From positions 726,288 through 790,287 of the forward strand of contig NC_092676.1 in NCBI RefSeq assembly GCF_964355755.1: a DNA stretch of 64,000 bases, given 5' to 3'. Source of the DNA: Antedon mediterranea (Eukaryota; Echinodermata; Crinoidea; Comatulida; Antedonidae). The translations under genes and the position numbers were made by a program. Shown piece by piece: positions 7,651 through 58,914 of this stretch; positions within the stretch are counted from its first letter, which is position 1, and every line of letters begins with the position of its first letter. The notes beneath the pieces are model-generated. The model was not told the DNA's origin. It saw only the letters and a list, made by a program, of their open reading frames with translations, and did not search any database.

Positions 7651-10600
7651 TTAGCTTTTTTGTTCAAAATTTTCATTATTTGGGATGTATGTAAATGAGA
7701 CGGCCTGACTTCCACCATTATCTGAAGGCCGTATCAACTTAAAATAAACTTGTTTAGGTTCCGTAATGTTACCATCTTTGTAAGGAGGAGTCGTGCACAC
7801 AATAGCAACCTGAAAAAGACAAAAATAGAAGCATTTCAATAAACGTGACACAGAGTAAAACATTGAATTTGTGGTGACCTATGACCTATTACCTTCTTGA
7901 TTACTGTACTTGCTTGATGGGTCATAGAAAAGCTTACAATATATCATGTAAACCACATACAAAGAATTCATAATAAATAACTCATGCTGTCTGGACCACA
8001 AACAGATAAGCCTGGAGGGTTCTTAAGCTTTTTCTACATTATCAAACTAGTTTGACAAAAATGGTGTGATGTGTCCAAATATGGTAGTGATATGCTTAAA
8101 TATGCTAGTGGTATGACATCATCATGTCCATATATGGGCACATCAAATGTTTTTGTCACATAAAGTGTGATAGTGTGAACAGAGCTTTAAATTGTAATGT
8201 TTACATGCACTATACATGACACGTGAATCTTGTGCTGTAAGTTTGTTTAAAAAACATGTTATGTACCAATATAGTTATATTTCACAAGAAAAACAATACA
8301 TCATTTTATAAAATGAAAAAAAAAATAGTTTACCCGACGGTGAATATCCGATGGATTAACTTGAGCAAATTCTGACCAATCAGCATCAAAGAACTTCACA
8401 GCTATATCATCTAATTTTTGAAAAAAATTAATAAACTCTTATAAACCTTTTATTAAACTGTTATATATTTTTAAAATTAACTTTCACACGTTGAATTATA
8501 TATATGATATTTTACTGTCATGTTTGTTTGTATTCATGAAATTTGCATTGTTGACACATAAAATCACAGTAAATTATAAATATATAAACACAAGAATAGT
8601 TTTCTGATTCTATTTGTATGACTGAGTATCAATACCTCTTTGTATTTTGCTACACAGGATAAACACTTTATCTCCGCCACGAGCAAAACCTGTACGGCGA
8701 TCAATCTGTATCACTGCTGGGTAATCTAATTGCAACACAAAATGATAAAAAAATTAACTTTATATAAATAATAAACAGAAAGACATTCTAAACCTACCAC
8801 AAAAAAAAATGACTAAATGCATGATAAAGTCAAAATCTGAACTTTTGAAATAATGTGTCTCAATTCCTCATATATGCAGACAACTGTATTTGGCCTAGGT
8901 TTAAATATTAGCTCTGTCAGCCTAATAAAAGATGAGATTGAAACGAGTTGTTCTGTTTATTAAGTGTATTTCAATAGAAGCTTCAGAATAATGTATATAA
9001 ATGTTACTACTTTTAAATTAAAAAAAGTAAATTATATAAAGTAAAAAAACTCACTTTTATCAAATATAGGCTGACTAACAACCGGAGCGAGAGGCACAGT
9101 TTCACCGGCCTCCTGAACCAGGTACACTTGAAAGCACAGACACACAACGGTGAGGTCAAACAGTCCGATAAGTTTCTTTCGGTCAGTAGTGGTCAGTTGA
9201 AAGTTTTTGAATGGGTTAACACCCTGATTGAGACGTACCAACAAAGCACTGAATATCTCATCTTGCTTTATACGCTGAACGCCAAGATGTTCAAATCTAA
9301 ACAGAATATGACAATATATTTAATTCAATTCAAAATCCACAATTATTCAGTAGGTAGGAAAAATAAATTAATAAGGTGGAATGGTACTTTATTAGCAGTA
9401 CCAGCTTCTTTTCAATTTGTACTTGGACAAAAAAATAAGTAAAACAATTATTAGTGCTTGTAAGACAATTAAGTACTAAATAACATACTTGATTGGCTGG
9501 CCTGCATTTGGCACAAACTTCTTACAGATTCCATTTTCACAGTCTTTACCCACAAGGCCATATGGATGTGGAATAGGCTTTGATGTTCCAGTCTCATTTG
9601 TAACCAGAGATACAACTACTCTTACGCTGCCTGTGTAGTTATTAACCTGTAAGGTTAGTGACAGTTTAGAAAACAAAAAAAAATGGCAGAGGTAAAAACT
9701 ACAGTAAAGAAATTGACAGAAAAATGGATGTGAGAAAGCTTTAATGATGGAAAAAGACAACAATTTTATAAAAGTATAACAAACCTGGATTGTTGGAAAA
9801 CTTTTATTTTTTGAGATTGACTTTTCCTCATATTGAACTTTCACCTTATAGAACCTGAAGTCCCTCTGTTTTGGTTCTTCTATAATCTCAGTAAACGGTT
9901 CTTCCTCTGAACAAAGCAAGTTACCTGTAAATTTATCATAAGTCAATGTAATATTAAAAACAATTACTGCTATTATATTATTACTTATGACTGAACAGTG
10001 GCCATATTGTATTCACCATTAACAGTTAGGCTAAGTGAAATACCTTTAGAATAAAAACTCTGCTGACCCAAGTGACATGTACATATTACTACTGTATATG
10101 ATTCAATTAATCAAGGATGTGTATTACTAGTACCTGTATAATTAACTAAAATTGACAGAAATTCATGATACATTGTTGTAACTATAAAAGTTTGTTATTT
10201 AGGGTACAATAAAAACTTCTCACCAAATTCTGATTTTACAGGCAGGAATACCAAATTTTGAGATGATTCTGAAAATAGAAACATGGTACTTAAATGGGCT
10301 GAGTAAACTCATTAGCTTTGGACTAGTGAAATAAAAATGTCAACCAAGTCGACAACCAATGACCTAACTGGGCCACTGGGACATCATCTTACCATCAGAT
10401 TCAACTTCACGTTTCACATTTAACAGTTTCTCCTGTACAGGTGATTCCTGGGCAACAGGCAGGCAATGTATAGGTCGTTTCTGGGCAACAGGCAGGCATT
10501 GCGTAGGTGGTTGCTGGGCAACAGGAAGGTAATCCATAGATGGTTGCTGGGCAACAGGCAGCCAATCCATAGGTTGTTGCTGGGCAACAGGCAGAAAATC

Positions 10601-13600
10601 CATAGGTGGTTGCTGGGCAACAGGCAGGCAATGCGTAGGTGGTTGCTGGGCAACAGGCAGGAAATCTGTAGGTGGTTGTTGGGCAACAGGCAGACAATGT
10701 GTAGGTGGTTGCTGGGCAACAGGCAGACAATGTGCAGCTGTTTGTTGGACTGGCAGTTCACAAGTTGGCTGTCCATGTGTAGATGGCTCATTGGTGTATG
10801 GTGTTCTACAGGGAGGTTGTTGGGGAGATCCAGCTGTTTGTCCTGATGGCATCTCTTTATTTAAATCTGCAAAAGAAAAAAGTGTTAAACCTATACTGCC
10901 TCCCCCTAAAGTCTTGTCTTCTCTACTAGCATTGCAAACTATCAACTATTTACAACTATCTACAATTGCCACTATTACTAATATCATTAACATTACCGTT
11001 ATTAACTGCTATGTCGTCATCATCATAATCAACATCATCATTATCATCATAATCACTATAATCAGACGAGTCTTCAGATGCTGATGATCCAATTACTAAA
11101 TCATTTGAAGATTCTGTTTAAAAATAAATTAGCAAAAAAGATTGAAAATATATCAAATATATTCTTTATATTATTAATAACTGAACTACAACTATGCTTA
11201 TCTATCAAGCATGTGCTTATGTTGCTTAGCTCACAAAACATACCGTGGTCTAGCTTTGCCTTCTTTGATAATTCTGAACTTTGAACTTTACCTACAAAAT
11301 GAGAAAAAGTCATTAAAGCGTAATTCCTACTTTCTAATTAACACACGTATTTTGTATATTTCATTGCATATCATTTGAAAACCTTTGTGCTCAATGCAAC
11401 ATCATGATTTAGTCATCAAGATATTATAGATTGGCTAGAGGGCAGACTCTTGACTGGGAAGTGATTCCAATAGGATGAGTAGTGCATGATTGTATAGGAG
11501 GTGTGACTGGTGTATCAATTGGTCGTATTGTATCATATTGTTGGTTCCCTCTAAACGAAGTATAACTTATTAACTATTTTAGTAAGAGTAGAGTTCACCC
11601 TCTAGTCAATCAGTAATATCTCAATTGATTCAGGTCACATGTGGGCTTGTATTTGGGAATTTGCCTAGATACAGTAAAATCGGTTAGTAATCTTACGTTT
11701 TACGGATGTCTTCACCATCTGGTTAAATTTAGTGCTTTCATTAGGATCTTCTGAAATAAAATTATGTAAATATATATATATCGGGAGATTCCAGCATTTA
11801 TCGGTATACTCCAGAATTTATCGGGAAACTCCAGCATTTATCGGGAAACTCCAGCATTTATCGGGAAACTCCAGCATTTATCGGGAAACTCCAGCAAATA
11901 TCAGGAGATTACAGAATTTTTGGGAGACTCCAGCATTCATCAGGAGAGGGAGGTGTGGTCCTTAAAATGTACATTTACTAAATGACAATGACAACAACTT
12001 ACTTGACATAACTTGGTCCGAGTTACTTGTCATTGATGTTGTAGATGATTCGTCTCTGTTGTCTAACGAAAAAAAAAATATATATATCAGAAAAAATTGG
12101 GGGACATTTATTGAGAGGGGGAGGTCTGGTTCTGGATATCCTTAAAAATAAGAAAGAATGTATTTAACAAAAGGCAACTTACTTGGCATAACTTCACCTG
12201 AGTTACTTTTCGTTGATGTTGTTGCTAAAGACGACGTTTCGCTGTTGCCTACCAAAAAATAAACATACTAGTCTAATTAAAATATTTGCAGAATAGATAC
12301 CGGTTTCCTGCTCTTCAAGTCCAAACTACACTTAACAATTCCAAACTACTCAATAATAAATTTAATCCTGGCGAGTAAACTGGAGCAAAGAAAACAATGT
12401 TATACCTTTTGTTAGAGCTTCCACTGCAAGTGGAACCTGAAGCGTTTTCAATTTCTCAATGAATGATTCCATTTTCCCCTCACAAATGACCCGCCTATGT
12501 TCAAGATCCATGATCAGGTTCCACACATCAACATACTCTTTAACAGGATCATTGTAACACTCACTGATTTTAGCCACATCAGCCTGTCGCAACACCATTC
12601 CAAGCATCACCACTTGTTGGCGATGACAGCTAAACTTTGATAATACAATGTCACGAACATTCGGGCATGATGGAATCAGCCGCTTAAGTTTTTCCACTAA
12701 GCCAAACTGCTTGGTTGCCTTTATGGTGTCGTATATCAGAGTGAGGTTACTGGGACTAAGATCTCCTGAGTCTATCAATAGATTCAGCAATTCAATCATT
12801 TTAGTAGCATTATCCAGCTCAAAGTTGCTTGCCACGTGGTCTTGGTACAACACTTTTAGCCAGTTGATATATGGACGTCGATCATACCACAGCGAAACCT
12901 CTGATAAAACATTCTTAAATTGTTCATCTGTTACTATAACAAGAAAAAAAAGTGATAATATAAAAATTTGTTTTCTTTTTCTGGGATGACAGTGTTTTTA
13001 CGGAATAATTTAGAGTAACTTACCTGTTGTACCATGGTCCAGCTTTGCCTTCTTTGATAATTCTGAACTTTGAACTTTACCTACAAAATAAGGAAAGAAA
13101 GGTCAAGAAAGGTTCAAAAGATTTATATATTTTTAAGTAACAAATGTAATTTTATATTTTTATTTTTGTTTTAATTTATTCTATTTAATTGCCCTAAATG
13201 ATTCGGAAACCTTTTTAGCTAAATGAAAAATCATTGCTTAGTTAATAATTTTTTTTTCCAATCTGAGACGGGAGTATCTACAGAGGAATTCAGATCTAAA
13301 ACCCAGACCGCCATATTCTATTATAACATCTAAATACATTCTTGTCATTTGATTCATTGAAACATACATGTCAAGTTTGAAACACTGTAATTTCCAAAAT
13401 GTCCCAACCGGGTAACCCCCTGCATCCACCTTATCAATCACTTTTATTTTAAGATTAACAGTACTTTACTTTTTTTTTGTCAATAAATCTTACACTTACA
13501 GGAAATTACATGAAAATTGAACTGTTGTACTGACAAACTTTACATTACATCGCAAGATTTAAATTTGATTCACTTACAATCAACTTCTGTTTGTGAACTG

Positions 13601-14754
13601 ATCCTTTTAGAAAGATTACCCGAAATACCATCATTTGATGACGCAACGACTTCTGTAACTTTGTTAATTTTTGGAGCTATTGTTGTTGTAGAACTCGACA
13701 CAACCTTCATCTTTGGATTGTTATCAGGGATATGTAAAATAAACATCGGCCTGCTTGTTTGAAAGGTATATGGCATAACCGATGATGATGTTCCTGTAAC
13801 CGGCATAATGTGGCGGTTTGGAAATTCTGCCTCATGAAGTATTGTGCAAGTTGTAGCTTTCAGACTGTGATTTGTGTATTTTTTTAAGCATCCAGCTTTT
13901 TCAGAAATCGTTTTCATCTTGCTTCCAAGCGTATTCACACCCAACGGCGCATCGATGTACCACGGAGTTCCGTCGTTTGGCGCCGCAAATCTCGGACGCT
14001 GCCACATACATTTCATGTCTGGGTTTAACACTTTTTTTAATGCGAGGAAACTCGAGACGGGGCACCTATTTGAACCGGGAATTTCGTGCATATGTCCGCT
14101 ACAGTCCTTATTAGGATCATTCTTACATCTAGATTTGGTCATGTTGTCACGATGCACAATGTAACGAAGATTTTTATCATCGACTTCAACAAAGAAATCG
14201 GAAATTGACATGCCTCGAAGGTTCTCTCTTCCACAGTTACCAAAGCGTATCATAATATCAATAAAAACTTTATTTTGCAGTCCCTCAGGTGTGGTAAGAT
14301 CCAAAGAGTCAAGTATTTTCTTCATGTCATCTTCAGTCACTGCTTGTTTGTGTCGCACGCCACCTTTGCCGAGTTTTTTAAGCTTAACAAGCATGGCTTT
14401 ATATGTTTTATCACTTTCTTTGAAGACCCAACTTTGAGTGATATCCACACATTTTTCAGCCATAAAGTGTCGGCCTAGCCCATATCGAATTGCATGCATC
14501 GTTTTTCTCGTGTACAATTCCCCATTATCTCTGCGTAGACCTCCATAGAAGCGACTCAAAAAACAATCAAGTTCTGTCGTATCTAGGCTTTCTACGTCCG
14601 CTAAAGTTGTACTTACAGCAATAGCAAAGGCTTCTAGCCTACTGACTGCATATTTGATTTGTTTTTTAGTGTTTGACGATTCTGGTGCATCATCATGTAA
14701 TCTAGCAATGTCTTCGTCGCTCAAAAGAGCAAAATTGCAACCGGATTCCGCCAT
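7651..14754 (-). CDS. Rel gene 1: Crypton-derived exon + DED-like domain + Rel homology/IPT domains
   Basis: Predicted 16 exons, 1163 residues: 13578-14754, 13024-13080, 12406-12933, 12183-12248, 12003-12062, 11697-11750, 11244-11291, 10997-11113, 10393-10866, 10224-10268, 9785-9924, 9489-9646, 9055-9296, 8636-8725, 8334-8410, 7651-7809. All junctions have GT/AG and agree in phase. Residues 1-392 are Crypton-like; about 415-500 are a death-effector-like six-helix region, with a second helical death-fold-like segment to about 585; 588-875 are a linker with an acidic exon and an 11-residue repeat; about 885-1055 are RHD-N with the hallmark [11 protein letters not shown]; about 1060-1155 are the IPT domain. 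The protein stops directly after IPT, with no ankyrin repeats. Relative to its paralog, the DNA-recognition loop is shortened and altered (RFYKVKVQ) and the basic tail is missing. DNA binding is therefore doubtful; a regulatory or decoy role is possible. Joining of exon 1 to the rest needs transcript proof. Confidence 0.72.
8024..8190. mobile_element. MITE family A, near full-length, in Rel gene 1 intron
   Basis: Left end AAGCTTTTTCTACATTATC, interior GTGATGTGTCCAAATATGG and its inverse, right end GTGATAGTGTGAACAGAGC. It sits between exons 7651-7809 and 8334-8410. Confidence 0.75.
10449..10745 (-). repeat. In-frame 33-bp coding minisatellite, about 8 copies
   Basis: Within the linker exon 10393-10866 of Rel gene 1, the 11-residue unit LPVAQQPPTHC recurs with substitutions at the last four positions (THC, TDF, MDF, MDW, MDY, TQC, IHC). 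The paralogous exon 23322-23537 has only a few irregular QQP-type motifs, so the expansion is specific to gene 1. Confidence 0.9.
11790..11905. repeat. 20-bp minisatellite in Rel gene 1 intron
   Basis: About five copies of CAGCATTTATCGGGAAACTC with decayed edges, in the intron between exons 11697-11750 and 12003-12062. Confidence 0.85.
12406..12933 (-). other. Death-fold exon of Rel gene 1
   Basis: A 176-residue exon. The first half has DED spacing: [12 protein letters not shown] (helix 1), [11 protein letters not shown] (helix 2), [19 protein letters not shown] (helices 4-5) and [11 protein letters not shown] (helix 6). The second half repeats a similar pattern around [19 protein letters not shown] and VPLAVEAL, consistent with a second DED/DD-like bundle. 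DEDs normally link FADD, caspase-8 and c-FLIP by homotypic contacts. The paralogous exon 26088-26621 is nearly identical. Confidence 0.7.
13578..14754 (-). other. Crypton tyrosine-recombinase-derived first exon of Rel gene 1
   Basis: A 392-codon open exon (ATG at 14754) ends in the donor GATT|GTAAGT in phase 1, which fits the next exon. The sequence follows the KIAA1958 / Crypton-type YR pattern: an N-terminal SAM-like region with FLSRFYGGLRRDNGELY, then LQNKVFIDIMIRFG, RENLRG (first catalytic Arg region), CPVSSFLALKKVL, MWQRPRF and YTNHSLKATT. Compared with the neighbouring ORF at 16574-17932, the HxxR box reads HxxK, the GH motif reads GT and the segment before the presumed Tyr is shortened by about two residues. 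Recombinase activity is therefore unlikely, which fits co-option as a structural or DNA-binding module. It could instead be a separate decayed intronless gene that ends at the in-frame stop shortly after the donor (13570). Confidence 0.65.
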
Positions 14755-16573
14755 TGTTGTTCGTTCGCGTTCAGCGATTGCATATAGCGAAATTCAACGG
14801 CGGCCATATATACCATAATAATTGAACGCTTGATGACGTAGCCTAGGCCTCCAGGTTCATTTGCGTATTTATTGAATACCATGTGACCCACAATCATCCA
14901 ACCAAATGCAGAGTTTCAAGTTTCTCAGATAAATTAAGTAATGTTGATAACAATTAAATAATTCAAAGACATTTTATACGCCCAACAAAAGCCAAATAAA
15001 GATAGAACAATTATCGGGACAATTGAAGTAAAAAACAAAGATAAAACTGGCGGGATTGCCTAATTAATAATACCTGTACAATAATTGTTATCTTAACAAT
15101 GAAATAATGCGGAATAAATTATTTTTATGAAGATGAAGAATTATTTTGTGGCTTTTTGACTTTGTGGTGCAGCATCGCAACACGACCGCAACAGCACAAC
15201 GACCACCACGTGCTGCAGCTCTGAGACGATCGGGGAAAACCCTGGAATCATGAGCGACTACCACGTGCTGCTGCAGCTGAGACGCGTACGATCGGGGAAA
15301 ACCCCGAAATCAGCGGTCATCTTAACAACTCATAACCACCGGATATTCGCCCGATTATGATACCAGCCAGAATAACAAATCTACCAGACGACTGGGTACT
15401 AGTAATTAGGAATTGCTTATAATTAATCATTGATGTGAAAGGCTTTGAATTAAAATTCTTTCATAAACCGGTAAAATGAATATACTGTAGGCCTACTGTA
15501 GTTTATTGCAGCTCCTCGCCATCATAATTCCATATAGGCCTACAGAAGGTATATCCGCATCCGTTACGTCTCGTGTGTATACTATATTGCGTTCTTGGAA
15601 ATGAAATACACCATTGTTTTGTTGAATTTTGAAAAATAATATTTATCATTATGTTTTTATATGTAAAAACTAATTAGATAGATGTGGCAGAGATAAATCT
15701 GTTTAGCTGGCCACCCACAAATCTCTATTACTCTACTAATAATCATTAATTAAACCAATAATAATTAATGCATACATTATATTATTATTATGACAAGAAT
15801 CTACTTAGGTGTGTTACATAAAATACTGTACCAATATTAGCTGTGTAAAATAACGTTTGACTAATAAGGAATTCCATTTTTTAAGAGAGAAAAATTTGAC
15901 TATTGCACATGAAAATAATTATTAAAAGCGTATTGTCCCAAGATTAATAAAATCAGACTTTGGAAATGCCATTGTGTAGTTGTATTAAGTTAATTTGAAT
16001 CACTTCATCAAAAAAAAAAAAATGATTTCACTTTATCATAAAATAACAAAATAATTGGTTAAATAAAAAAGCCATTATTTCAGGCAGAACATTTTTTTTC
16101 AGGTAAATTTGTTTGCGTGTATAACTATTATCTGACATTAAAATGGAATTTAAATAAAGATGTTGTACTAAACATAAAAAAAGAACAAAACCAGCAGATT
16201 TAGACACAGAGTCCAATTTGGAATGATTGGCATAAATAATAAAGATGTATGGTTCCCCTGACAAAAATTGTTTTACATTTTTGTTGTTGAATATGCCATT
16301 TTAATGTTACATAATAGTTATCCACCTTGACCAAAAATTGGATGTAAACAAAATTGATTTACCTGAAAAAAACTGTAATTTAAAGCAAAAAATGGTTAAA
16401 TTGGTTGACAGCCAATGGATTTTTGTTTGAATTCAACCATTTAATGTTTTTTTATAAGTGAAAACATTATTTGTTTTCTTTTTTTTTCAATGGAAGTGAT
16501 TAACAAGTTATTAAAACTACAAAAATATATATATATAACATATCCAAAGACTGATTTAATTAATCTTAATTTT
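14755..16573. other. Region upstream of the Rel gene 1 Crypton exon
   Basis: I see no coding exon. The bases just upstream (14760-14860) are relatively CpG-rich (GTTCGCGTTC, ACGGCGGCC) and may be the promoter of the Crypton exon. Around 15180-15310 an imperfect 70-80 bp duplication (CGACCACCACGTGCTGCAGC and a similar block) is present. The rest is AT-rich. Confidence 0.4.
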
Positions 16574-17932
16574 TCATGTTTTTTGTGGACAATACATCTT
16601 TAACATATAAATGAAGCAATTTTTGTAAAAGTGACCTATGACTCTACTTCTGTTAACATGATCCATGTTGTTTACATCCTGGTGAGTTGATTGAGAAGTT
16701 TCTAATGTTGTTGTTGGTGTGAGGTAGCTTGGTCCTGCTGTTGGTGTGAGGTAGCTTGGTCCTGCTGTTGGTGTGCGGTAACATGGTCCTGCTGTTGGAC
16801 TAATGGTACAGACTGGTGTACTGCTAGCACTGTTATTGAATTTGTCCGACAGACACAAACTCATACTCCGTTGAACGTAGTGTTTAATACTGGCTTCAGA
16901 TTTGTGCCCAGAAATGGACATGATGTGCCTTGGTGCAAATCCTTCGTTACCCAATGCATGAATCGTTGTAGCCCGCAGGCAACTGTTAGTATATATTTTA
17001 GATGTTCCGGCTTCACGACAAATATTATGCATTTTTGCTCCTAATGTGTTTTTACCCAACGGCATATTATTGTACCATACCACATTATTATCCAAAACAG
17101 TATTTTTAGGCCGCTGCCAAAATGTGTCGTTTGCTGGATCAAGGTGTGAGGTGTACTTGCAGTAGGCAGCTACAGGGCAGTCTGGCAGGCAGGTTTCATA
17201 CATTCTTCCGGAGTCATCTTTAGTCTGAGCAAAGTATACATATCTCTGATTTGTTGAGGAATCAGAAGTCATGGCAAAATCAGTTTTTAAGAAACTACGC
17301 AGATTTCTCCTACTACTAAGACTGTTGTTGCATAAATGAAGCATAAGATCAACAAACACTTTATTTTGGAGTCCCCTCGGCGTGTTCACGTTCAACGCAG
17401 AAGAGGCTTTTATTTTTAAAAAGTCCTCTTTAGAAATTGGGTCTTTCGGTGACCCACATCCTTTCCCAGACAATTTAATTTGCATAAGGACCGTTTGATA
17501 CATCTCATTAGCTTGCTTAAATTGTGAATCATTTACAATGTCAATTGTCTTCACCTTTTTAAAGTGTTTCTGTAGTCCGTAGCGTAGAGTTATCATCGAT
17601 CGTTTAGCATACAATTCACCGTTTGATCTCTTCACCTCGCCGAAGAATGACCGTAGAAACGCGTTGAGCTGGGGTGCTGTGAACTTTTCAATGCACGCAA
17701 CTGACGATCCCTTAGCCTTACAATATTCATTGAGTATATTGACCGAGGAAGTCACAACATGTTTTGTAGACAGAGAGTCCTTTTCGTCTAAGCCTAATTC
17801 TTCTTCATCATTTGAAGCAGCCATTTTCAAACAGCTTATTCCTGGGCTGTCCACTCCTTTCTCACAATAATCAATTTTAGATCGATCGTCCAGGCCACTT
17901 TCAAGAAAACTCGCGGAAGGGAGACCAGTCAC
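16574..17932 (-). CDS. Crypton / KIAA1958-like tyrosine recombinase-family protein
   Basis: A single open frame of 452 codons. The longest start is 17932; an alternative ATG at 17824 (MAASNDEEEL, context AAAATGG) resembles the start of the paralogous exon at 14754 and may be the true one. The order of motifs is that of Crypton YR proteins: LRSFFGEVKRSNGELY, LRYGLQKHF, LQNKVFVDLMLHLCN, RRNLRSF (first catalytic Arg), MWxRP-like FWQRPK, LGKNTLGAKM, YTNSCLRATT (HxxR box with Ser in the His position), SISGHKSEASIKHYVQR (GH and the presumed nucleophilic Tyr). Near the C-terminus a 10-residue unit (GPSYLTPTA) is repeated three times. Uninterrupted length implies selection or recent activity. Catalysis is possible but the His substitution makes it uncertain. 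It could be a domesticated gene or a transposon copy; no terminal direct repeats were identified. Confidence 0.7.
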   Translation of the reverse strand: MTGLPSASFLESGLDDRSKIDYCEKGVDSPGISCLKMAASNDEEELGLDEKDSLSTKHVVTSSVNILNEYCKAKGSSVACIEKFTAPQLNAFLRSFFGEVKRSNGELYAKRSMITLRYGLQKHFKKVKTIDIVNDSQFKQANEMYQTVLMQIKLSGKGCGSPKDPISKEDFLKIKASSALNVNTPRGLQNKVFVDLMLHLCNNSLSSRRNLRSFLKTDFAMTSDSSTNQRYVYFAQTKDDSGRMYETCLPDCPVAAYCKYTSHLDPANDTFWQRPKNTVLDNNVVWYNNMPLGKNTLGAKMHNICREAGTSKIYTNSCLRATTIHALGNEGFAPRHIMSISGHKSEASIKHYVQRSMSLCLSDKFNNSASSTPVCTISPTAGPCYRTPTAGPSYLTPTAGPSYLTPTTTLETSQSTHQDVNNMDHVNRSRVIGHFYKNCFIYMLKMYCPQKT

Positions 17933-19248
17933 TATTCCAACAAAATTTCCCTAACGGGGAGACTCATATAACGTTTTGGATTCTGACCACCAATCACGTT
18001 CGAGTATTTACACAGGGGGTCGTGAGAAAACTACGGAGTCTATAAAGGGACATGCATAAATAAAAAAATATGTTTTTAAACGCAGTACATGAAATTAATT
18101 GTGTATAAATAATTAATATAAAATATAATTGTATTTTATTGGAATGCAAATGCAGTATGTACTTTTTATAAATACAGTAGTTTAGTTTTAAGAATTACTG
18201 ACTCTTATGAATTTAAAAGGCCCTATTTTCCTGGTCCTGCACCTTAGGCATGGGGGATACCTATTTTTTAATTGGTCAAATAAATAAATGAAATAAATAT
18301 TATTTCGTAGTACAGTATTAAGAATTATGAAGGTAGAGCCTACAGCTGAGTTTTCCCAAAAAGTTTGATAGCTTATCACTTCTGATAAACAAAAACAAAA
18401 TAATACACAAAACACAACAATCTTTTTATAAACAAGTTGAGGTTATTCATTTCGTTTTTACTACCGTACATAAAGAAACTATAGAGTGCAGATAAGAAGA
18501 ACTTAGTCCATTCCTGCCATGCTAGATCAAGATGGCATTTGGAGACATACCTCACATTGCATTATTGTTTTACTGGCACTATCTGGAATGTATAGTTATA
18601 CTGTATAAAGATTGAAAATGTACTGTGTATTAGAATGACAATACAGTATCATTTAAAATACTCTTATCTTATGTACGGGGCGCCGGTCGGAGCACTACTA
18701 ATAATAATATCAATGGCACCCCGTAGCTATGTGCGCAATCTGACATTTTATAAAATATTAACACTTATATTAGTAATATTATTGATAGTAAACAACTGAT
18801 TAATATATAAAATCACACATTTTCAATGTTTGAATAAACTTTTGTCAAAAGCAATAAGGTTGATTAGTATTTAATTGATAAGTTTACTTTTAACTGGATT
18901 TCTATAGAATTAATTTTTTTTTATTTGAATCAACATGATCAATGTTGTGTCACTACCTAATAGACCTTCACTTTCACGACGTGCCATTTGGCAATCATGT
19001 TGAAATGTCCTTATGCACATGCTCAGAAACATACAGCATGCATAGCATGACTATTAGACTCAATAGCTACATAGAGACAAAATTAATAATTTATCGTACT
19101 GGATACAATATTATGTGAAAATTAATATTTAATCTTGGATGGATCTATGAAATACTGTTTTAAACACAGCATACACTTTTAATTTGTCTATAAATGAAAA
19201 ATACACATTTTTAGTAGGTTATTTACAATACAGGAGCACGACACGGAT

Positions 19249-19256
19249 TGAGGTAG
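19249..19256 (-). promoter_or_regulatory. Predicted let-7 8mer target site in Rel gene 2 3' UTR
   Basis: The sense (minus) strand reads CTACCTCA within AACTACCTCAATCC; the paralog reads AACTACCTCAGTCA. It lies about 714 bases past the stop. Confidence 0.45.
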
Positions 19257-19734
19257 TTCCAAATACACAAATAAATGATATACAAACTTAGGTTTCTCCT
19301 ACAAAATATAATGCCAAGTAAAAAGTATTAAGCCACATACAGCAGAGCAGGTCCATCACATCACCGTGTGTGTGTGTGTGCAAGTTCACTGAATATTTCA
19401 GCATTCACAATTTGTTTGTTCAGTGTTTTTAACACAACAACTTTTGAAGATGTTCAAATTCTAATTAATTCATAAATATTTACAACCAAATTCATTAGTT
19501 CTTCAGCATAAAATCACACCACTCATTATCACTAAAATATCATTAAACAAATTCTACAATGTAATATCTATACATCAGTAGTCACCTTGTTACACAAGTA
19601 TAAACATCTGATACATGTTACCAACTAACACTGTGCTCAACCATGATCATACAACTGATGATAACTGTGATCATGTAGTGTTGATACCTGTGATCATGTG
19701 CATTGATAACTGATTTATGTACAGTAGTGTTGGT

Positions 19735-19905
19735 ACCTGATCATGTGTGTTGATAACTGTGATCATGTGTGTTGATAATGGTGATCATGTGTGTTGATAA
19801 CTGTGAGCATGTGTGTTGATAATGGTGATCATGTGTATTGATAATGGTGATCATGTGTATTGATAATGGTGATCATGTGTATTGATAATGGTGATTATGT
19901 GTATT
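19735..19905. repeat. GTGATCATGTGTGTTGATAA minisatellite
   Basis: Roughly eight copies of a 20-22 bp unit combining TGATCATGTG and TGTTGATAA, in the predicted 3' UTR of Rel gene 2. Confidence 0.85.
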
Positions 19906-19969
19906 GGTAACAGCAATAATCATGATTGTGCATGATCTTAAAATATCCCGGATTAATATTAAAACTATT

Positions 19970-22900
19970 TTAGCTTTTTTGTTGCAAATGTGCCTTATGT
20001 TTTGATTTCTTATTTGGCACATACGTAAATGAAACGGCCTGACTTCCATCATTATCTGAAGGCCGTACCAACTTAAAATAAACTTGTCTAGGTTCTGTAA
20101 TGTTACCATCTTTGTAAGGAGGAGTCCTGCACACAATAGCAACCTGAAAACAGACAAAAATAGTTATTATTTGACACAGTACCTATAATTATTGTGTCTC
20201 TAATAACTAACATTAAGTAAAAGAATGAAGGAGGAATCAAGTCCCATGACAATGTTCATGCATCTGCAGAATGAATTGCTGTAACTAGTTTCTAGGTCAA
20301 TAACTCCTATCTCAACCACAGACAAGCAGATAAGTCTATAACATGAACACATATTTAGTGGCTTTAGTAGTAGTCTACAAGCACATGCACACACAATAAA
20401 ACAAATAATATACAATTCTGTAACATTAAGAGTAATACCTGACGGTGAATATCCGATGGACTAAAACGAGCGAAATCTGACCAATCAGCATCAAAGAACT
20501 TCACAGCTATATCATCTAATTATTGATTAAAAAAAAAAATTTCAAATATATTTATACAGAAAATTAATTTATTTAATAATTCATTAATAATAAATTATTT
20601 TTTAAACCACTTTCATTCTTTAATTAATATTTTATCTTTCTAGACTAAAATATATTTTACAATACGTAAATAAATGAATAAAGTACAGCTTTTTAATTAT
20701 AGTATAATATTATTTGTATGACTGACTAACTATACAAACCTCTTTGTATCTTGCTACACAGGATAAACACTTTATCTCCGCCACGAGCAAAACCTGTACG
20801 TCGATCAATCTGTATCATTTCCAATGCTGGGTAATCTAGTGAAAACAAAATAATAATGACAATGAAATAAGCTTTAAATGCGAATTAAACTGGAGTATTC
20901 TGCTTTCTACGCAGAAAGCCCACCTTCTGGATTAAACTTGTTGGCCTTGGTTCAAATATTAGCTCTCTCAGCTGAATATTGGGATTTTGCCAAAACGGTT
21001 CCACTAACTAAGGCCTAGATTAAGGCAAGTAAATAAATCTAGGGGAATAACCTGCGATTCGCAGCCTACTGGGCTAATTTGCACACAGGTGTGGACGACA
21101 CATACTAGGGACAATAATAGGGACTTTACAAAATAGGACGTTTAGGGGAGGATGAGGGAGATTCTGTGCTTGCTAGAGCGTAAAATCCTAAACAGATGAT
21201 ATAGCCATTTTATTAGTTACGAACAAATGGTTGTTGAGTAAGACTCACTTTTATCAAATATAGGCTGACTAACAACCGGACTGAGAGGCATGTCCTCACT
21301 GCCCTCCTTAACCATGTACACTTGAAAGCAGAGACACACAACGGTGAGGTCAAACAGTCCGGTGAGTTTCTTTCGGTCAGTAGTCGTCAGTTGAAAGTTT
21401 TTGAAAGGGTCAACACCCTGATTGAGGCGTACCAACAAGGCACTGAAAATCTCTTTCTGTTTTATACGCTGAATGCCAAGATTTTCAAACCTACAATGAT
21501 TGATGAAATAATAAATTCATATCACATTATAAATGCTAATGACTTGTTTTGGTTATTGTAGGATACTATATCTCTTGGACATTCTCTGTTTATGTGTAAA
21601 ACATTTGGTTTTAGGCACTATAAAGCTCTGTCTACACCATCAAATCTATGTGACAAAATATGTGATGTGCCAATATATGGACACAATGATGTCATATCAT
21701 ACCATATTAAAGCATCTCTGCCATACATCACACTTTTTTGTCACATAAAGTTTGATAGTGTAGACAAAGCTTAAGACAACCATTTTTTTTTCATTCATCT
21801 TCATCCATTCATCTTTTTATTTTGGAATATTATGATTACATAATATATCCATAATTAACATTAGATTAGATGACATGAACATAACGACATACTTGATTGG
21901 CTGGTCTACCTTCCGCACAAACTTAACATTAACATTAGATAGATGAAATGAATCTAACATACTTGATTGGCTGGTCTACCTTCTGCACAAACTTAACATT
22001 AACATTAGATAGATGAAATGAATCTAACATACTTGATTGGCTGGTCTACCTTCTGCACAAACTTAACATTAACATTAGATAGATGAAATGAATCTAACAT
22101 ACTTGATTGGCTGGTCTACCTTCTGCACAAACTTAACATTAACATTAGATAGATGAAATGAATCTAACATACTTGATTGGCTGGTCTACCTTCTGCACAA
22201 ACTTCTTACAGATTCCATTTTCACAGTCTTTACCCACAAGGCCATATGGATGTGGAATAGGCTTTGATGTTCCAGTCTCATTTGTAACCAGAGATACAAC
22301 TACTCTTATACTTCCTGTGTAGTTATTGACCTATTGCAAAAGATTGGCAAAGATAATTAACACTATTGTAATAAAATGAACATGGTATATAAGGCATAAT
22401 ACACTGGTCACTTATGGGCTCGAAAAAGATCAACACTATGATCGGAAAAAACAGAGTCCTCAAAACAGATAAATCAAATAATATATATGGACATGATGAT
22501 GTCATAGCACTACCATATTTAAACATATCACTACCCTATTTGGGAACATCACAAACTAGTTTGATAATGTAGACAGAGCTTACGAATTGTAAGTTTAATT
22601 ACTGAGGAGGAAAAGAAAGAGTACACATTTATTTACAAATATGTAATGTAAACACACCCTGATTGTTGGAAAACTTTTATTTTTTGAGATGGACTTTTCT
22701 CCAGAGATGCTTGCAGACCGACCTTCCACTTGGTAGCGGAACCTGAACTCCCTCTGTTTAGGTTGTTCTATTATCTCGGCAAACGGGCCTTCCTGCCGTT
22801 TTGGGCCAAGCCAGTTACCTGTAAAATGAGTTATTTTATGTATTTAGTCACATGTGTGGCATAAAGTCAATACAACTAGAAAGAAGAGCAATTATAACTG

Positions 22901-25900
22901 TTTCAAATAGTTTAACTATGATTATAATCTCTATTCACACTCGGCTAAGAAAAAACCCCATTAAAGTAAACAATTATATCCTATCTACAGTAAGTGAATA
23001 CCACATAAAATAACATCATCAAATATTGTTTAAGTAAAATTCTGTAATTCTAATTTACAAGAAATGTCTCACTTGAAATTGAATATTATTTAAATCTGTA
23101 ATGTTATATTTTAAAAAGTTAAAAAAAAAAAATCCTCACTAAATTCTGATTTGACGGATGATCCAGATGCGGAGCGTGACGATACCATCGAAAGTAATTC
23201 CAAATTTTGGAACGATTCTGAAAATAGAAACAATGTTCAAATAAGTTTAGTACACTCTTTGAAGTAGTAAAAGAAATGCACAATACTAAAACATTAATGT
23301 GTCAATATGATATAACTGTACCACTGCTAGATCCAACTTCACGCTTCAAATTTAACGGTTTCTGCTGTACAGGTGGTTGCTGTACAGATGGTTGGTGTAC
23401 AGATGGTGCCTGGCCAGGTGGCAGTCCATGCGTAACTGCTTGTTGGGCTGGCATATGATGATATGATGGTGTGCTAAGGGCAGGTCGTCCGTGGGCAGAT
23501 TTAGGTGCTTGTACAGAGGGTTTCTGTTTGTTCACATCTATAGAAAAAAAGTTGTACAGTTAATTTATTGTCTTGGGTAAATGGATAACTAAGAAGATAT
23601 ACCTTTTAAATTTTATGTTTGCCTTTTGTTTTTGCCTTTTGAGAATTTAATTTATTTTGTTTTGCCTCATGTCACCGCTGTGTCGGTTTTGTTTTTCTTT
23701 TGCATATTTATACGGAATTAAAAAAAAAAATAAAAAAATATAAACCTGACCTAAAAATAATTAGCTTACCACGACTGGCTTTTAAATTGTGTCCATTTTG
23801 GGCTAAAACACATAAAAAGCAAAATATACTGTACTGTTAGACTTAAACTTCAGGACCACAATGGAAATAAGTTTGCCGTCTTTGTACTTTATTGTGTTTT
23901 TATCCTATGATTTTATGTCAGAATAAAGTAATAAAAATGAAAATAAAACAAAAAAAAGTGGTAAATATATTTGTAAGATTCTCATCAAAGTCTCCTAGCT
24001 TAGCAAACTATTTACAATTGTCATTATCACTATTTAACAGTCTACATGAAAAACAGTGTTTGCAAATAGTAGTGTTATTTATTTCTTGTGTCAGTGACAT
24101 TACCTTTACTAACTGCTATGTCGTCATCATCACTATAATCAGACCAGTCTTCAGATTCTGATGATGCGATCACTAAATCATTTGACCCTTCTGTTTAAAA
24201 TAAATAAAAGTGAAGAATGTCAACTAATGTAATGAATGTAACTAAGCTATCTTTTTGTAAGCATGTACTTTGTTTAAAGGCCAATCATTTCCACAGACAA
24301 GTGGAAGCGGTAATAACAATATACTGTAGAATCTATGTTATTCCTTATGACCATTACACACAACGCTGATACTGTAGATAGAAATTCTACAAGGAACAAG
24401 CTACACGATATTCCGCTTACCTTTACCACTCACATGTGTAAATTGGCCGTTATACTAATATAAACTTTCCTCAGTTTCCACTTTGCCCATTTTCCAATTA
24501 CAGTTTTCTTTACTTACCTACGTATTTGTGATATATTTCTGGCTTTACAAGATGAGACTTATGTTCATCTTCACTAGTTATAGATAGTTCTTCAGAGTCT
24601 GACGACACATGAGATGAACCATTTGGCTTCTCTGTATAAAAAGAAAAACCCTTTAAAATTGTGTTTGTTTTTAAAATTGCTTGCTCATTTATTTTGAAAT
24701 CTAATAAATTTTCTTTTCATTTATTTTTAATGAAAGATAATTTTTTTTTTGGATGAACTCCTTTTTATAAAGAGAGGAAGAAACGATTCATAACATTAAA
24801 TCACATTGCTTACGTTAAAATAGAGAATGAAATTAAAAACAATTACAGCGACTTACCATGGTTCAGCTTTGCCTTCTTTGATAATTTTGAACTTTCAACT
24901 TTACCTACAAAGGTCAAGAAAGGGTCAGAAGATATTTAAGCATGGTTATTATATACTCTAATATTAATATTTGTACCCTAATGCATTGTTCTCATAAACA
25001 ATGTGCCCTAAGGATTTCAAACCATGTGATTGATTAGCTACTTATGTATTTAGGAATTTGCCTAGATACAGCACAAAACCAATCTTACGTTTTAATGATG
25101 TCTTTACCATCTGCTTGAATTTCATGCTTTCATTTGTTTTATTACTTGCAACTTCTGAAAAAAAAATATGTGTAAATAAACGTTAATAAGACAATTCTGC
25201 TATGACAAAATGCATAAATACTAATCCAAAATAATTTGTATTTCCATCATTAAAACTAAGCGATCTAAATTTACCTTTTTTCTGAGTTTCCAATAACTTC
25301 CTGAATGTTAGACTTTTATTAGCTGGATTTGAAGATTCTGGAAAATTTAAATTTCAGTTTTAACCAAAAAATTATTGCAATTTGATAATTGAATAACTCC
25401 TTCAAAGTAGCTTTGCATCAGGGAGCTAGGTTAATGAATCAGATGTTTTCCCTACTCTGATGTGATTGTACTTTATGCAAAGTAAATTTAAGAAAACAAC
25501 ATTTTCTCTCTGGTGGGATTCAAATCCACGCGACCAGAGTGGGGCAAACAAATGAATAAACCAAATGTTATTATAAATATATATAAAAAAAAATTAGTTT
25601 TCACTTTGTGTTGATGGTTTCGGTAATTTTGGTTGATTAAGTACCACAGTACCATCATTAGTTGAACCTGTCTGTGGGGTTTCTGAAAAAAAAAATTTGC
25701 TATTTTGTTTTCGGTACATATTTATGCATATACACCCTTTAATAATTTGAAATAATTGTCCTGTTCTCCGATTCATTTGTTGTTCAAAGTATGTGCAGTT
25801 AATAATTGACAACGATAATGATCATTACTTACTAAGAACATACGCGATGTGACCCAAGTTACTTTTAGACGTTGTTGCTGATGTAGAAGATGCTTCTCTG

Positions 25901-26765
25901 TTTCCTGCTAACAAAAAGAAACAGTTAAAACAATTTATCTCGGCTAAGTAGTATCTATCCTAAATGAAAACTGCTTGCTTATTAATTGGTGAGGCTAAAT
26001 ATTTTCAAGAGTCACTAGGCACAAAGGGCACTCTAACTGGGTGCTTACCAAATGTTATGCAAGTTTTTAACGTTAATAATGCCATACCTCTTGTTAAAGC
26101 TTCCACAGCAAGCGGAAGCTGCAGAGTTTTTAATTTCTCAATCAGCGATTCCATTTTGCCCTCACAAATGACCCGCCTATGTTCAAGATCCATGATCAGG
26201 TTCCAGCCATCAACATACTCTTTAACAGGATCGTTGTAACACTCACTGATTTTAGCCACATCCACCTGCCGCAACACCATTCCAAGCATCACGACTCGTT
26301 GTCGATGACAGCTAAACTTTGATATCAAAATGTCACGAACATTCGGGCATGATGGAATCAACCGCTTAAGTTTTTCCACTAAGCCAAACTGCTTGGTTGC
26401 TCTTATGGTGTCGTATATCAGAGTGAGGTTACTGGGACTAAGATCTCCAGAGTCTATCAATAGATTCAACAATTCCATCATTTTAGTAGCATTATCCAGC
26501 TCAAAAATATTTGCTACATGGTCCCGATACAACACTTTTAGCCAGTTGATATATGGACGTTGATCATACCAGAGCGAAACCTCTGATAAAACATTCTTGA
26601 ATTGTTCATCTGTTATTGGAACTACAAGAAAAAAAGTGAACATATTATATTTCGGATGTGGTAGATATTAAAGTATATATTTTGTGTGTGTTTACAGAGC
26701 AGCTAGTATCATAAAATTACACGTCAATAAATTGACTTTTACTTACCATCACTTGAACTCGCCAT
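19970..26765 (-). CDS. Rel gene 2: DED-like domain + Rel homology/IPT domains, no ankyrin repeats
   Basis: Predicted 18 exons, 756 residues: 26747-26765 (MASSSD), 26088-26621, 25833-25907, 25653-25682 (least certain), 25275-25337, 25089-25154, 24857-24904, 24518-24631, 24104-24190, 23770-23802, 23322-23537, 23140-23217, 22658-22818, 22173-22330, 21249-21490, 20740-20835, 20439-20515, 19970-20143. Residues about 8-95 are DED-like ([36 protein letters not shown]), followed by a second helical segment to about 180 and a Ser/Asp-rich linker. RHD-N (about 465-640) has [31 protein letters not shown] and [14 protein letters not shown] (about 645-745) has [21 protein letters not shown] and [10 protein letters not shown]. 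The recognition loop keeps RFRYxxEG but has Val where NF-kB p50 has its redox-sensitive Cys. The tail KKSKHK after IPT lies where Rel proteins carry a nuclear localisation signal. Likely a sequence-specific transcription factor with a homotypic death-fold interaction module. Confidence 0.78.
21621..21773. mobile_element. MITE family A, full-length, in Rel gene 2 intron
   Basis: TAAAGCTCTGTCTACACCATC on the left and GATAGTGTAGACAAAGCTTA on the right, with a palindromic interior. It sits between exons 21249-21490 and 22173-22330. Confidence 0.8.
21885..22200. repeat. 70-bp tandem array spanning exon end and 5' splice site of Rel gene 2
   Basis: Five copies with period 70 bp: the marker ACTTGATTGGCTGG occurs at 21891, 21961, 22031, 22101 and 22171. 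On the sense strand each unit carries the last ~28 bases of RHD exon 22173-22330 and its donor CAATCAA|GTATGT. The first copy (22171) is contiguous with the exon body. Each unit also has TTTGTGCAG just upstream, a possible cryptic acceptor that would delimit a 20-base microexon. Confidence 0.88.
22480..22582. mobile_element. MITE family A fragment in Rel gene 2 intron
   Basis: Right half only: GACATGATGATGTCATAGCAC through TTGATAATGTAGACAGAGC. Confidence 0.6.
23585..23745 (+). mobile_element. Possible retroelement 3' remnant in Rel gene 2 intron
   Basis: A T-rich block (TTTTGCCTTTTG, CGCTGTGTCGGTTTTG) ends TATTTATACGGAATTAAAA followed by an A-rich run, like the 3' end of a truncated retroelement. 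No coding remains. Confidence 0.3.
26088..26621 (-). other. Death-fold exon of Rel gene 2
   Basis: Exon of 534 bases. Its DED-like first half and second helical half are nearly identical to gene 1 exon 12406-12933. It is preceded only by a 19-base first coding exon, so the death fold is at the extreme N-terminus. Confidence 0.7.
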
Positions 26766-28358: not shown

Positions 28359-30273
28359 TCAATATGCAACAGCAATACATTTCTTGTACCATTTCTCGGT
28401 CTCAAGAATGTCCAGCATAAACTGGGCTACATCCCCTCTGTTGATCATACTTGAGGCACCTTCAACAAACTGACGTTCTTCTACTTTTATTTCATTTTCT
28501 GCCAAAATTAAAAAGGAAATACAATGTATCATTATCAAGTTAATAGTGACCTACAATGTATCATTATCAAGTTAATAGTGACCTACAATGTATCATTATC
28601 AAGTTAATAGTGACCTACAATGTATCATTATCAAGTTAATAGTGACCTACAAAACTATGCAGCTGAGTAAAACAATTCATTCTGCATACGCTCAGAAACA
28701 CATTTAAACTCAATAGATCAGCTGTGTAGCCACTATTGTTCTAAGGAGCAATTCCATTATGTTTGGGGATGTTGTATAATGGTGTATGTGAAAAAAATCA
28801 ATAGATATATTGTTTTGAGCATCAGTGTCCGTAAGCACTAACTGTATACAGTCAATAGCCACCATATGTGATCTAGTATCACGATTACAATGGACCTGTA
28901 CCAATAAAGAAATAAGATGTAAACCGAACCTGTAGGTGGCGCTGTTTTTAATCCAGGTGGCCTGACTGTAGTGTAATCTAAATCACTGCATTCCTTTTGT
29001 AAGAAGTCCTCCATATCAGCCATACTGGTTAGTACCCTTCCTAGTACAAAAGGTTTTAATATCCATTCCACAAAAAATGGTCCTGGATCTTCAGAATTAT
29101 CTGAAAAGAAACCAAATTCTTCATATAAACTTTGCAAGTAATATCAGAAGATATAGAGGGAGCAAATGTAAGCCAATGTGTTGTAGACTGTATGTTATAA
29201 GAACGCTGAGAAAATGCTACATAGCGGCGCTTTTTAATTAAAAACTAACATTTGAAAAAATAAAAATGGTGTAAGGGTTAGTGACCCAACAAATCCAAAT
29301 GTTTGAATTCTTATAATACTTACAAGATGTACACCATGATGTAATAGCAACTAGTCTTTTCACTCCAACCGTTCTCATTGCGGAAACAACAATTTTCATA
29401 GTGTCTTCATAAAACGTTATCTTTGAAAAAAGTGTTGGTTTTGTTCCTAAGCAAGACAGAACCGCATCACATCCGCTGAACTGTTCCACCAAGAAATCTT
29501 GATTATAGATATCACCTTCAGCTACCTACAATAAAGAATATATCATTGATATAAAATCATAGCAACCATGAATCTTCCAAACCTTAAAACTAGTGCATGT
29601 GCTAATATTTGTCTTTTAAAATGTTACTATTCAATATGAAATGTTACTATACTGTACTATTGTTTTTACTAATCTACTGAATTAAAGATGGTGCCAATTT
29701 GCATTTTAATGACTGGTACACAAAGTCAACAAAGACAGATTTTTAACAACTGATTGATTGCAATACCGATAAACAAATTGCATAAACATACATTACATGA
29801 TGATGATATTAATAATTTATTTATTGACCCAGTCACATAATGACATATGTCAACTGAATCTGTTTCTTGATCTTTCTGAACCAGTGTAAATCATAAATGT
29901 ATGATTGTGATAGATTACTAGGCCTAATAGTAATATTAATTATAAAAAAGTATAAATACTATAAAACAATGTTCTGATCAAACTATTAATAGCTATAGTT
30001 CCCATTATACACGACAGTGTATACAACAACAGTAGTAATATAGCCTGCGTACTATTAATTATTAAGTTACAGTAGACCTAGGGCTAGGCCTGCAAAGGCT
30101 AGGCTTGGTTGGGCTAGGCCTCCTCACGTCTCACTCACGTTCAGCCGCTCGTGTTGCAACTGCACTTTCTGCGGGCTTCTCACTGGTACCACAACAGTGT
30201 GTCCCCTTTCTATGGCCAACTGGGTAAGTAATACGCCCGTTGGCCCTGTAGCTCCTAGCACTGCTAACTTCAT
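28359..30273 (-). CDS. Atypical SDR, NAD(P)H-binding flavin reductase (BLVRB)-like
   Basis: Four exons: 30139-30273 (ATG at 30273), 29324-29525, 28930-29100, 28359-28498; 215 residues. The N-terminus MKLAVLGATGPTG carries the GxxGxxG dinucleotide-binding loop, followed by RGHTVVVPVRSPQK. Exon 2 has CDAVLSCLGTKPTL and GVKRLVAITSWCTS, the strand-4 to strand-5 region of NAD(P)-binding atypical SDRs; exon 3 has FVEWILKPFVLGRVL and DLDYTTVRPPGL; exon 4 has INRGDVAQFMLDILE. This is the pattern of biliverdin reductase B / NmrA-like enzymes, which reduce flavins or biliverdin with NADPH. It is a cytosolic protein without signal or membrane segments. A paralog with the same intron positions and phases lies at 46017-47630 on the other strand. 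Confidence 0.8.
28520..28650. repeat. 32-bp minisatellite, 4 copies, in SDR intron
   Basis: Unit TACAATGTATCATTATCAAG plus TTAATAGTGACC, four near-identical copies. It begins about 20 bases from the acceptor of the last exon and is purely intronic. Confidence 0.85.
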
Positions 30274-50511: not shown

Positions 50512-50668
50512 AGCAAAGTCGTCCGTAGAGAATAATCTAACGAAATCTAAAAATATTAACAAAGACAGCTGCATTAAAATGAGTTTAAATAATATTCATT
50601 TTCTCAATTTAATAGAGTTTAACCTAACTACTGTTTTCTTTTGAAATGTACTTGATTTAGAATAACCA

Positions 50669-50990
50669 ACCATCAGTATAAAATACCATCAGTATAAAAT
50701 ACCATCAGTATAAAATACCATCAGTATAAAATACCATCAGTATAAAATACCATCAGTATAAAATACCATCAGTATAAAATACCCTCAGTATAAAATACCC
50801 TCAGTATAAAATACCATCAGTATAAAATACCATCAGTATAAAATACCATCAGTATAAAATACCATCAGTATAAAATACCATCAGTATAAAATACCATCAG
50901 TATAAAATACCATCAGTATAAAATACCATCAGTATAAAATACCATCAGTATAAAATACCATCAGTATAAAATACCATCAGTATAAAATAA
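50669..50990. repeat. 16-bp minisatellite, ~20 copies
   Basis: Unit ACCATCAGTATAAAAT, with two copies reading ACCCTCAG. Confidence 0.93.
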
Positions 50991-58291: not shown

Positions 58292-58351
58292 GTTTATCTG
58301 TCTGTTTGAAATTGTAATGCAGTAATGGGAAGAAGGAACAACAAAGACAAG

Positions 58352-58790
58352 AATATGGATATTCATTCTCTCCTCCACCCCATCAACTCTCCTACATTCA
58401 TCCTATTCATGTATTATGGATATTCATTCTCTCCTCCACCCCACCAACTCTCCTACATTCATCCTATTCATGTATTATGGATATTCATTCTCTCCTCCAC
58501 CCCATCAACTCTCCTACATTCATCCTATTCATGTATTATGGATATTCATTCTCTCCTCCACCCCATCAACTCTCCTACATTCATCCTATTCATGTATTAT
58601 GGATATTCATTCTCTCCTCCACCCCACCAACTCTCCTACATTCATCCTATTCATGTATTATGGATATTCATTCTCTCCTCCACCCCATCAACTCTCCTAC
58701 ATTCATCCTATTCATGTATTATGGATATTCATTCTCTCCTCCACCCCACCAACTCACCAACTACATTCATCCTATTCATGTATTTGTATA
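58352..58790. repeat. 61-bp minisatellite, ~7 copies
   Basis: Unit TCATTCTCTCCTCCACCCCA, TCAACTCTCCTACATTCATC, CTATTCATGTATTATGGATAT. Copies alternate CCCATCAAC and CCCACCAAC. Frames run through in all three phases, so the apparent 196-codon protein is an artefact. Confidence 0.92.
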
Positions 58791-58914
58791 TGCATCCAGT
58801 GAGAACAAAGGTGGATTTTAACATTAAATATCCTCATTCCCCAAGTGGTATTCAATTAAAATTAAATCAAACTACAGGTTTATTCACAATTTCGGGTATG
58901 TATTTCAATCCATG

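Follow-up and report, generated by a model that had tools for sequence, protein, structure and literature searches.

The question raised by this locus is whether a Rel transcription factor can carry its own death-fold signalling module at the N terminus. It is posed by two tandem genes in a 64,000-nucleotide stretch of the crinoid Antedon mediterranea (contig NC_092676.1, positions 726,288 to 790,287; hereafter the window, in whose numbering positions are given), both on the minus strand, gene 2 at 26765-19970 and gene 1, with its probable start, at 14754-7651. A sequence-only reading of the window had proposed that in each gene a death-effector-like exon is joined through phase-compatible exons to the N-terminal Rel homology domain (RHD-N) and the IPT domain. 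The exon chains bear this out: in both genes the death-effector exon can be linked in frame through class 1-1 exons and GT-AG introns to RHD-N and IPT, the NCBI predicted models contain both parts, and a death-fold module and a Rel homology region thus stand in one predicted polypeptide in each of two tandem genes.

Two predicted fusion genes

Gene 2 was built by hand from splice sites as 16 exons, in frame and with GT-AG boundaries at 15 of 15 introns, encoding 734 residues and a stop codon. The NCBI predicted protein P0001 (A. mediterranea, 760 residues) matches this model letter for letter and adds a single 26-residue exon (25682-25605). The first exon (26747-26765, 19 bases), identical in P0001, supplies the start codon, the residues MASSSD and a phase-1 donor, and is followed by the exon that holds the death-effector motifs of the earlier reading (26621-26088; 534 bases, 178 codons, class 1-1). 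Linker exons then occupy 25904-23140 (25904-25833, 25682-25605, 25337-25275, 25154-25089, 24904-24857, 24631-24518, 24190-24104, 23537-23322 and 23217-23140), among them basic exons resembling nuclear localization signals (NLS; KTSLKRK and SKKAKL) and an acidic stretch. RHD-N is encoded at 22818-21249 by exons 22818-22658, 22330-22173 (which carries the RHD-N motif first noted) and 21490-21249, and the IPT or dimerisation domain at 20835-19970 by exons 20835-20740, 20515-20439 and 20143-19970, ending in the stop codon. A 70-base repeat present five times at 21817-22236 includes, by eye, the end and splice donor of an RHD-N exon of this gene, and because the copies carry that donor they may act as decoy donors in the intron that follows.

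Between the module exon at 12933-12406 and the stop codon at 7651, both included, gene 1 comprises 14 exons in the same order as gene 2: linker exons at 12248-10224 (12248-12183, 12062-12003, 11750-11697, 11291-11244, 11113-10997, 10866-10393 and 10268-10224), RHD-N exons at 9924-9055 (9924-9785, 9646-9489, with the RHD-N motif, and 9296-9055) and IPT exons at 8725-7651 (8725-8636, 8410-8334 and 7809-7651, with the stop codon). A 33-base tandem repeat at 10406-10781 encodes QPPTHCLPVAQ-like 11-residue repeats in linker exon 10866-10393, and none is visible by eye in gene 2. The module and linker exons are class 1-1 in both models and the RHD exons run 1-0, 0-2, 2-1, 1-1 and 1-0; shuffling or skipping of the symmetric exons would be expected to leave the frame intact.

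The Rel half of both proteins is readily recognised by Pfam, with RHD_DNA_bind (PF00554) at E 4.6e-47 and RHD_dimer (PF16179) at 1.7e-29 in gene 2, and 5e-34 and 4.6e-27 in P0121, the 1,572-residue NCBI prediction for gene 1. Against solved full RHD chains gene 2 scores highest with p65 and c-Rel (234-215 bits), followed by p52 and p50 (205-190) and RelB (189-188). RHD exons occur at three loci of the genome (11 exon matches from 10 candidates), namely the window, C10 and C6; by eye the C10 gene resembles a canonical Rel (RFRYECEGRSAGSIPG) and the C6 gene an NF-kB (FRFRYECEGKSHGG). In a seven-row tree, from which vertebrate p50 was absent and in which the C6 branch is long, the fusion RHDs of genes 1 and 2 pair (100/100) and group with the C10 Rel (86/91), and several intron positions are, by eye, the same in the C10 gene and the window genes. 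By sequence comparison, then, the RHD of both genes is of the Rel class and its exons fall into the Rel gene lineage. Pfam matched no ankyrin family in either protein, in keeping with the earlier claim, but this absence is normal and not a special feature because the RHD is Rel-class; independence from an internal IkB is for that reason nothing special either, and a separate IkB could still bind.

These are nevertheless Rel-class RHD proteins of unusual build and not ordinary Rel proteins, since the two chains end just 13 and 8 residues past the last IPT motif and so have no C-terminal transactivation region. Basic runs resembling an NLS occur in the linkers and, in gene 2 only, also after IPT. 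The recognition loop, which contacts DNA in Rel proteins, reads RFRYQVEG in gene 2, a single Cys-to-Val change from RFRYxCEG with RFRYxxEGRS kept. In gene 1 (exon 9924-9785) it reads RF-YKVKVQYE followed by a five-column gap against the canonical RFRYECEGRSAGSIPG, so that most of the loop is lost; this change suggests that the predicted DNA contacts of gene 1 are probably damaged.

Comparison of the two genes yields dN (nonsynonymous) below dS (synonymous divergence) throughout. By NG86, dN/dS was 0.030/0.250 and 0.035/0.356 for the first and second death-effector domains (DEDs), 0.099/0.264 for RHD-N (0.108/0.514 for its first exon alone), 0.053/0.131 for IPT and 0.301/0.569 for the linker, which is 58.9% identical over 190 aligned residues. 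The corresponding YN00 values were 0.050/0.115, 0.030/0.401, 0.113/0.187, 0.042/0.177 and 0.283/0.751, by which constraint seems looser for the first DED and RHD-N. The module and RHD halves have thus seemingly both been held since the duplication.

The death-effector module and its relatives

The earlier reading described the module as one DED-like domain. Its place in the DED subfamily is supported by Pfam, a c-FLIP profile match and, in the second half, predicted fold, but it probably contains two DEDs and not one. The translation of 26088-26621 matches Pfam DED at E 1.9e-5, a result below the curated cut-off; in the whole gene 2 protein the match is at 4.2e-4 (20.9 bits against a cut-off of 35.9), and the gene 1 exon gives 2.5e-5 (24.9 bits, again below it). 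The likeness exceeds chance across the family: with matches admitted up to E 10, eight of nine modules hit Pfam DED, the best at 5.5e-10, and the full-length relatives P0122 (50.0 bits) and P0124 (51.6 bits), with several modules each, pass the cut-off, with P0123 just short at 35.6. DED is absent from the precomputed Pfam lists of the P0001 and P0121 database entries because its score falls below the curated cut-off, and automatic annotation therefore hides this architecture.

The Pfam match is located in the first half of the module. A direct phmmer search of the module against the PDB returned no match at E <=10, and a family profile found c-FLIP as its best PDB match (full-sequence E 5e-4; best single stretch, independent E 0.044). 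Structure modelling, named beforehand as a test, gave a confident DED-like fold for the second half, to which one of two models assigned six helices and the other five, and a poor model for the first (predicted local distance difference test, pLDDT, ~37-52). Seven structural matches align 104-139 residues over both halves with c-FLIP, caspase-8 or vFLIP at root mean square deviations of 4.7-6.0, partly through low-confidence residues. The position of the E/D-RxDL motif, which is conserved in DEDs and not defining, reads TKQFGL in the alignment and by eye does not keep the motif, the helix register being uncertain in the first half. Taken together, these results make a tandem DED of the c-FLIP/caspase-8 type the most likely identity of the module, with the first DED recognised by sequence and the second by predicted fold.

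The sequence-only reading had looked to FADD and caspase-8 for the kin of this module; the closest carriers we found are instead crinoid DED-NACHT-LRR receptors and related proteins. Three protein searches, limited by length or candidate number and relying on shared five-residue words so that distant relatives may escape, recovered the module in two crinoids only and its fusion to Rel in Antedon only. A module-region query (proteins of ~418-1330 residues) retained 5 of 709 candidates at E 0.1, all crinoid, with an RHD in P0001 alone; a query of gene 1 residues 300-700 (~640-2035 residues, 8000 candidates) retained at least six at E 1, all crinoid, two of them with an RHD and both from Antedon; and the whole of gene 2 (7999 candidates) retained at least 342 at 0.01, with P0001, among the 120 listed, the only one to cover the query and the others covering 38-43%. 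The partners of the module are NACHT and LRR or LRR-like repeats (P0123, P0124 and P0128), OTU and NACHT (P0125), RING/B-box (P0127) and, in P0126, a weak TIR match (E 0.062) with LRR-like repeats by eye; P0122 has four modules in a row. At least 90 Pfam DED matches at E <=0.001 are present in the genome (150 of 359 candidates scored), a mixture of ordinary DEDs and this module. The two Rel modules pair (100/100) within the family in a 17-row tree whose deep forks are weak (63/84).

The likeness to one of these receptor genes extends beyond the module. Most of the P0123 gene lies at about C7:1,121,000-1,132,400, ~0.37 Mb from gene 2 on the same chromosome; in the DNA examined around those positions, neither its start nor its first module was found. 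Its linker contains NESMNLQQIVKTSIKRK, KALLRPTLTKKPKLDHGK and TSQSSKLTKKQKLDH on separate genomic stretches and aligns with the gene 2 linker at a Smith-Waterman score of 103 (maximum of 2000 shuffles, 74) and with the gene 1 linker at 92 (shuffle maximum 62). Counterparts of gene 2 exons 25154-25089 and 24904-24857 are found in this DED-NACHT-LRR gene. The P0124 linker has no match to either, 911 and 1045 of 2000 shuffles being equally good. Module and linker exons of two kinds thus look like a cassette in common with a DED-NACHT-LRR gene, and we infer that such a gene supplied both together; the direction, from receptor gene to Rel, is suggested by the wider spread of the module and not by the tree. 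Near the C10 Rel-like and C6 NF-kB-like genes, tblastn with the gene 2 module and the receptor proteins found no DED within ~20 kb upstream of each, a span beyond which exons would escape. At C7:1088100-1127700, 0.3-0.4 Mb from the window, DED-NACHT-LRR genes or gene fragments lie clustered and contain numerous LRR blocks that resemble one another.

The start of gene 1 and its Crypton-like reading frame

For gene 1 the sequence-only reading was right from the module to IPT, but it read the gene too short, missing what is probably a Crypton-derived first exon, and it missed the damaged loop. Our chain has 16 exons, with 15 of 15 introns GT-AG, and encodes 1163 residues and a stop codon. It begins with a proposed first exon at 14754-13578, continues through a linker exon upstream of the module (13080-13024, KVQSSELSKKAKLDHGTT), and is contained whole in P0121 from residue 410 to the end. 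The first exon is a 391-residue open reading frame (ORF) with DUF3504 (15.3 bits), QRICH1 (18.6) and Phage_integrase (17.9) matches, each below its cut-off; its phase-1 donor (GATT|GTAAGT) is compatible with the next linker exon and the module, and unspliced it would reach a stop 8 bases beyond the donor. P0121 uses this same junction and adds a second Crypton-like ORF that lies between the genes (17824-16637), so that with both ORFs the three matches rise above cut-off (39.1, 40.6 and 36.8 bits). We doubt this addition: it would require an intron with GT-AA ends, and the 400 bases preceding the ATG yielded no in-frame AG acceptor. The start of gene 1 probably lies upstream at 14754, in the Crypton-derived exon. 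Among upstream alternatives, neither blastn nor a simple search for ATGs with a donor revealed a MASSSD-like start within 7 kb; the latter gave eight ATG candidates, five of them within the Crypton ORF and one at 13425-13368.

Both window ORFs are single-exon and ~35% identical to each other. The gene 1 ORF has HSLK and VTGT, by eye, at the H-x-x-R and GH positions, so the catalytic tetrad R-H-R-Y of Cryptons (PMC3212892) is incomplete. We rejected an active Crypton insertion: the family is low-copy, with 13 matches from 17 candidates including the query and its window neighbour, and all four long genomic ORFs have at least one catalytic position changed, by eye. Damage is slightest in the ORF at 17824-16637, which retains GH and Y; two more long relatives lie at C9:8682362 and C4:35685078, and the remaining matches are mostly broken or short. 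KCTD1 isoform b offers a precedent for the recruitment of a Crypton to the front of a protein, an upstream insertion having given it a new N-terminal part (PMC3212892). As proposed for gene 1, this extension is a single-exon, catalytically damaged Crypton domain; unlike gene 1, it precedes BTB/POZ and not DED-Rel.

Elsewhere in the window we note two similar ORF sets at 28359-29525 (minus strand) and 46531-47289 (plus strand), by eye resembling an NAD(P)-binding reductase family, and satellite-like tandem arrays at 36666-37909 (period 59), 50579-51058 (period 16) and 58293-58841 (period 61).

Competing explanations and known systems

Rel-class proteins are not known to carry ankyrin repeats, and p105/p100 contain a death domain. 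With Rel-class NF-kB (p65/RelA, c-Rel, Dorsal) the window proteins have RHD-N and IPT in common, p65 and c-Rel being the best solved relatives, but they add a probable tandem DED at the N terminus and a linker, 275 residues long in gene 2 and 289 in gene 1, lack the C-terminal transactivation region and, in gene 1, have a damaged loop. Like p105/p100 they unite a Rel homology region with a death-fold domain in a single chain, yet here the death fold is DED-type and N-terminal, there are no ankyrin repeats, and the RHD scores lower against p50/p52 than against p65. DEDD/DEDD2 have a nuclear role and are not known to contain a Rel homology region. c-FLIP, caspase-8 and vFLIP share the two DEDs in a row (probable here, the second by fold and the first by sequence), in contrast to the window proteins, which are without a caspase-like part and by eye without the RxDL motif. 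The crinoid receptors P0123, P0124 and P0128 have the same module, with matching linker pieces in P0123 and an unlike linker in P0124, but NACHT-LRR where the window proteins have RHD-IPT. DEDD/DEDD2, by name a DED-containing DNA-binding protein (PMC6599020), likewise places a DED within a DNA-binding protein but has a single one (PMC4558505), and the DED proteins listed in the covered part of PMC4558505 include no Rel protein. Amphioxus, sea urchin and Nematostella are reported to have DED-NACHT receptors, and amphioxus hybrid immune genes show domain shuffling with DED connectors, DED-NACHT among them (PMC2575513); no Rel hybrid was met in the portions of that paper covered. Titles and abstract openings in the literature searched, which excluded subscription papers and preprints, yielded no description of a DED-Rel fusion, and the main text of PMC11432056 has no mention of death effector, death domain, crinoid or Anneissia. 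The receptor side is already known; the N-terminal fusion of DEDs to Rel appears to be the new part.

The reading that we favour, at about even confidence, is that exon shuffling placed the signalling prodomain of a receptor onto a Rel protein. NACHT oligomerisation in an activated DED-NACHT-LRR receptor would cluster its DEDs, and the tandem DED-Rel proteins could join these clusters by homotypic DED contacts, whereby their location, their choice of dimer partner or the accessibility of the basic linker would change, in line with the earlier suggestion that DED oligomerisation might release or activate the factor. Receptor assembly would then steer a Rel factor directly, bypassing adaptor, kinase and IkB steps, with gene 2 as the DNA-binding member and gene 1, given its damaged loop and Crypton-derived N-terminal domain, as a dimerising modulator or inhibitor. 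A bolder form, which we regard as quite doubtful, makes this a receptor-to-promoter shortcut with a brake: gene 2 would be recruited to NLR-like (NOD-like receptor) assemblies via the shared cassette, and gene 1 would be a paralogous inhibitor whose loop decayed and whose domesticated recombinase domain perhaps re-aims dimers to other DNA.

That module genes and Rel genes are separate neighbours fused by gene prediction alone seems very improbable. The NCBI models are predictions, and P0121 contains the doubtful Crypton-Crypton junction, but the same order recurs in two tandem copies (as duplicates, not fully independent evidence) with in-frame GT-AG exons of matching phase, linker exons run continuously from module to RHD, dN/dS is below 1 in both halves, and the models themselves argue against module and RHD exons in separate mRNAs. 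A stronger rival, somewhat unlikely in our view, concerns only the front of gene 1: the Crypton-like ORF would be a separate, unrelated gene that terminates by itself (EVDCK followed by a TGA shortly after the start of the putative intron), with gene 1 either starting elsewhere or being a pseudogene. The stop 8 bases past the donor, the other long single-exon Crypton-derived ORFs in the genome and alternative short ATG exons with a phase-1 donor, such as 13425-13368, all fit this; the compatible GTAAGT donor, the absence of a MASSSD-like exon in 7 kb upstream and the joining of ORF and gene 1 in P0121 do not, and open exons with dN/dS below 1 speak against a pseudogene.

Two further alternatives accept the fusion and differ over what it does. 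The ankyrin repeats of p105/p100 keep the Rel protein in the cytoplasm, and the DED module might be inhibitory in a similar way, with constitutive or self-limiting assemblies storing Rel in the cytoplasm until linker cleavage frees the RHD; an oligomerisation-type N-terminal domain, a long, poorly conserved linker with NLS-like basic exons and the lack of ankyrin repeats would suit such a role, but the NLR gene has similar basic exons, which are therefore not specific to a released factor, and we think it unlikely. It is likewise improbable, in our judgement, that both proteins have lost normal Rel function and serve as dimerisation decoys tethered to receptor complexes: they end shortly after IPT, and the loop is damaged in gene 1 and altered from Cys to Val in gene 2, but RFRYxxEGRS persists in gene 2 and acidic, aromatic stretches of the linker could serve in activation.

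In well-studied animals, the path from NLR-type sensors to NF-kB runs through adaptors, kinases and IkB. Against this background, the apparent fusion of a sensor's signalling exon cassette to a Rel factor suggests that in A. mediterranea the way from immune sensing to the control of genes may be short. If this is true, the pathway is collapsible to a receptor and a transcription factor, the locus would offer a natural test of whether DED assembly alone controls a Rel protein, and a transposase-derived domain would have been added to the same protein family.

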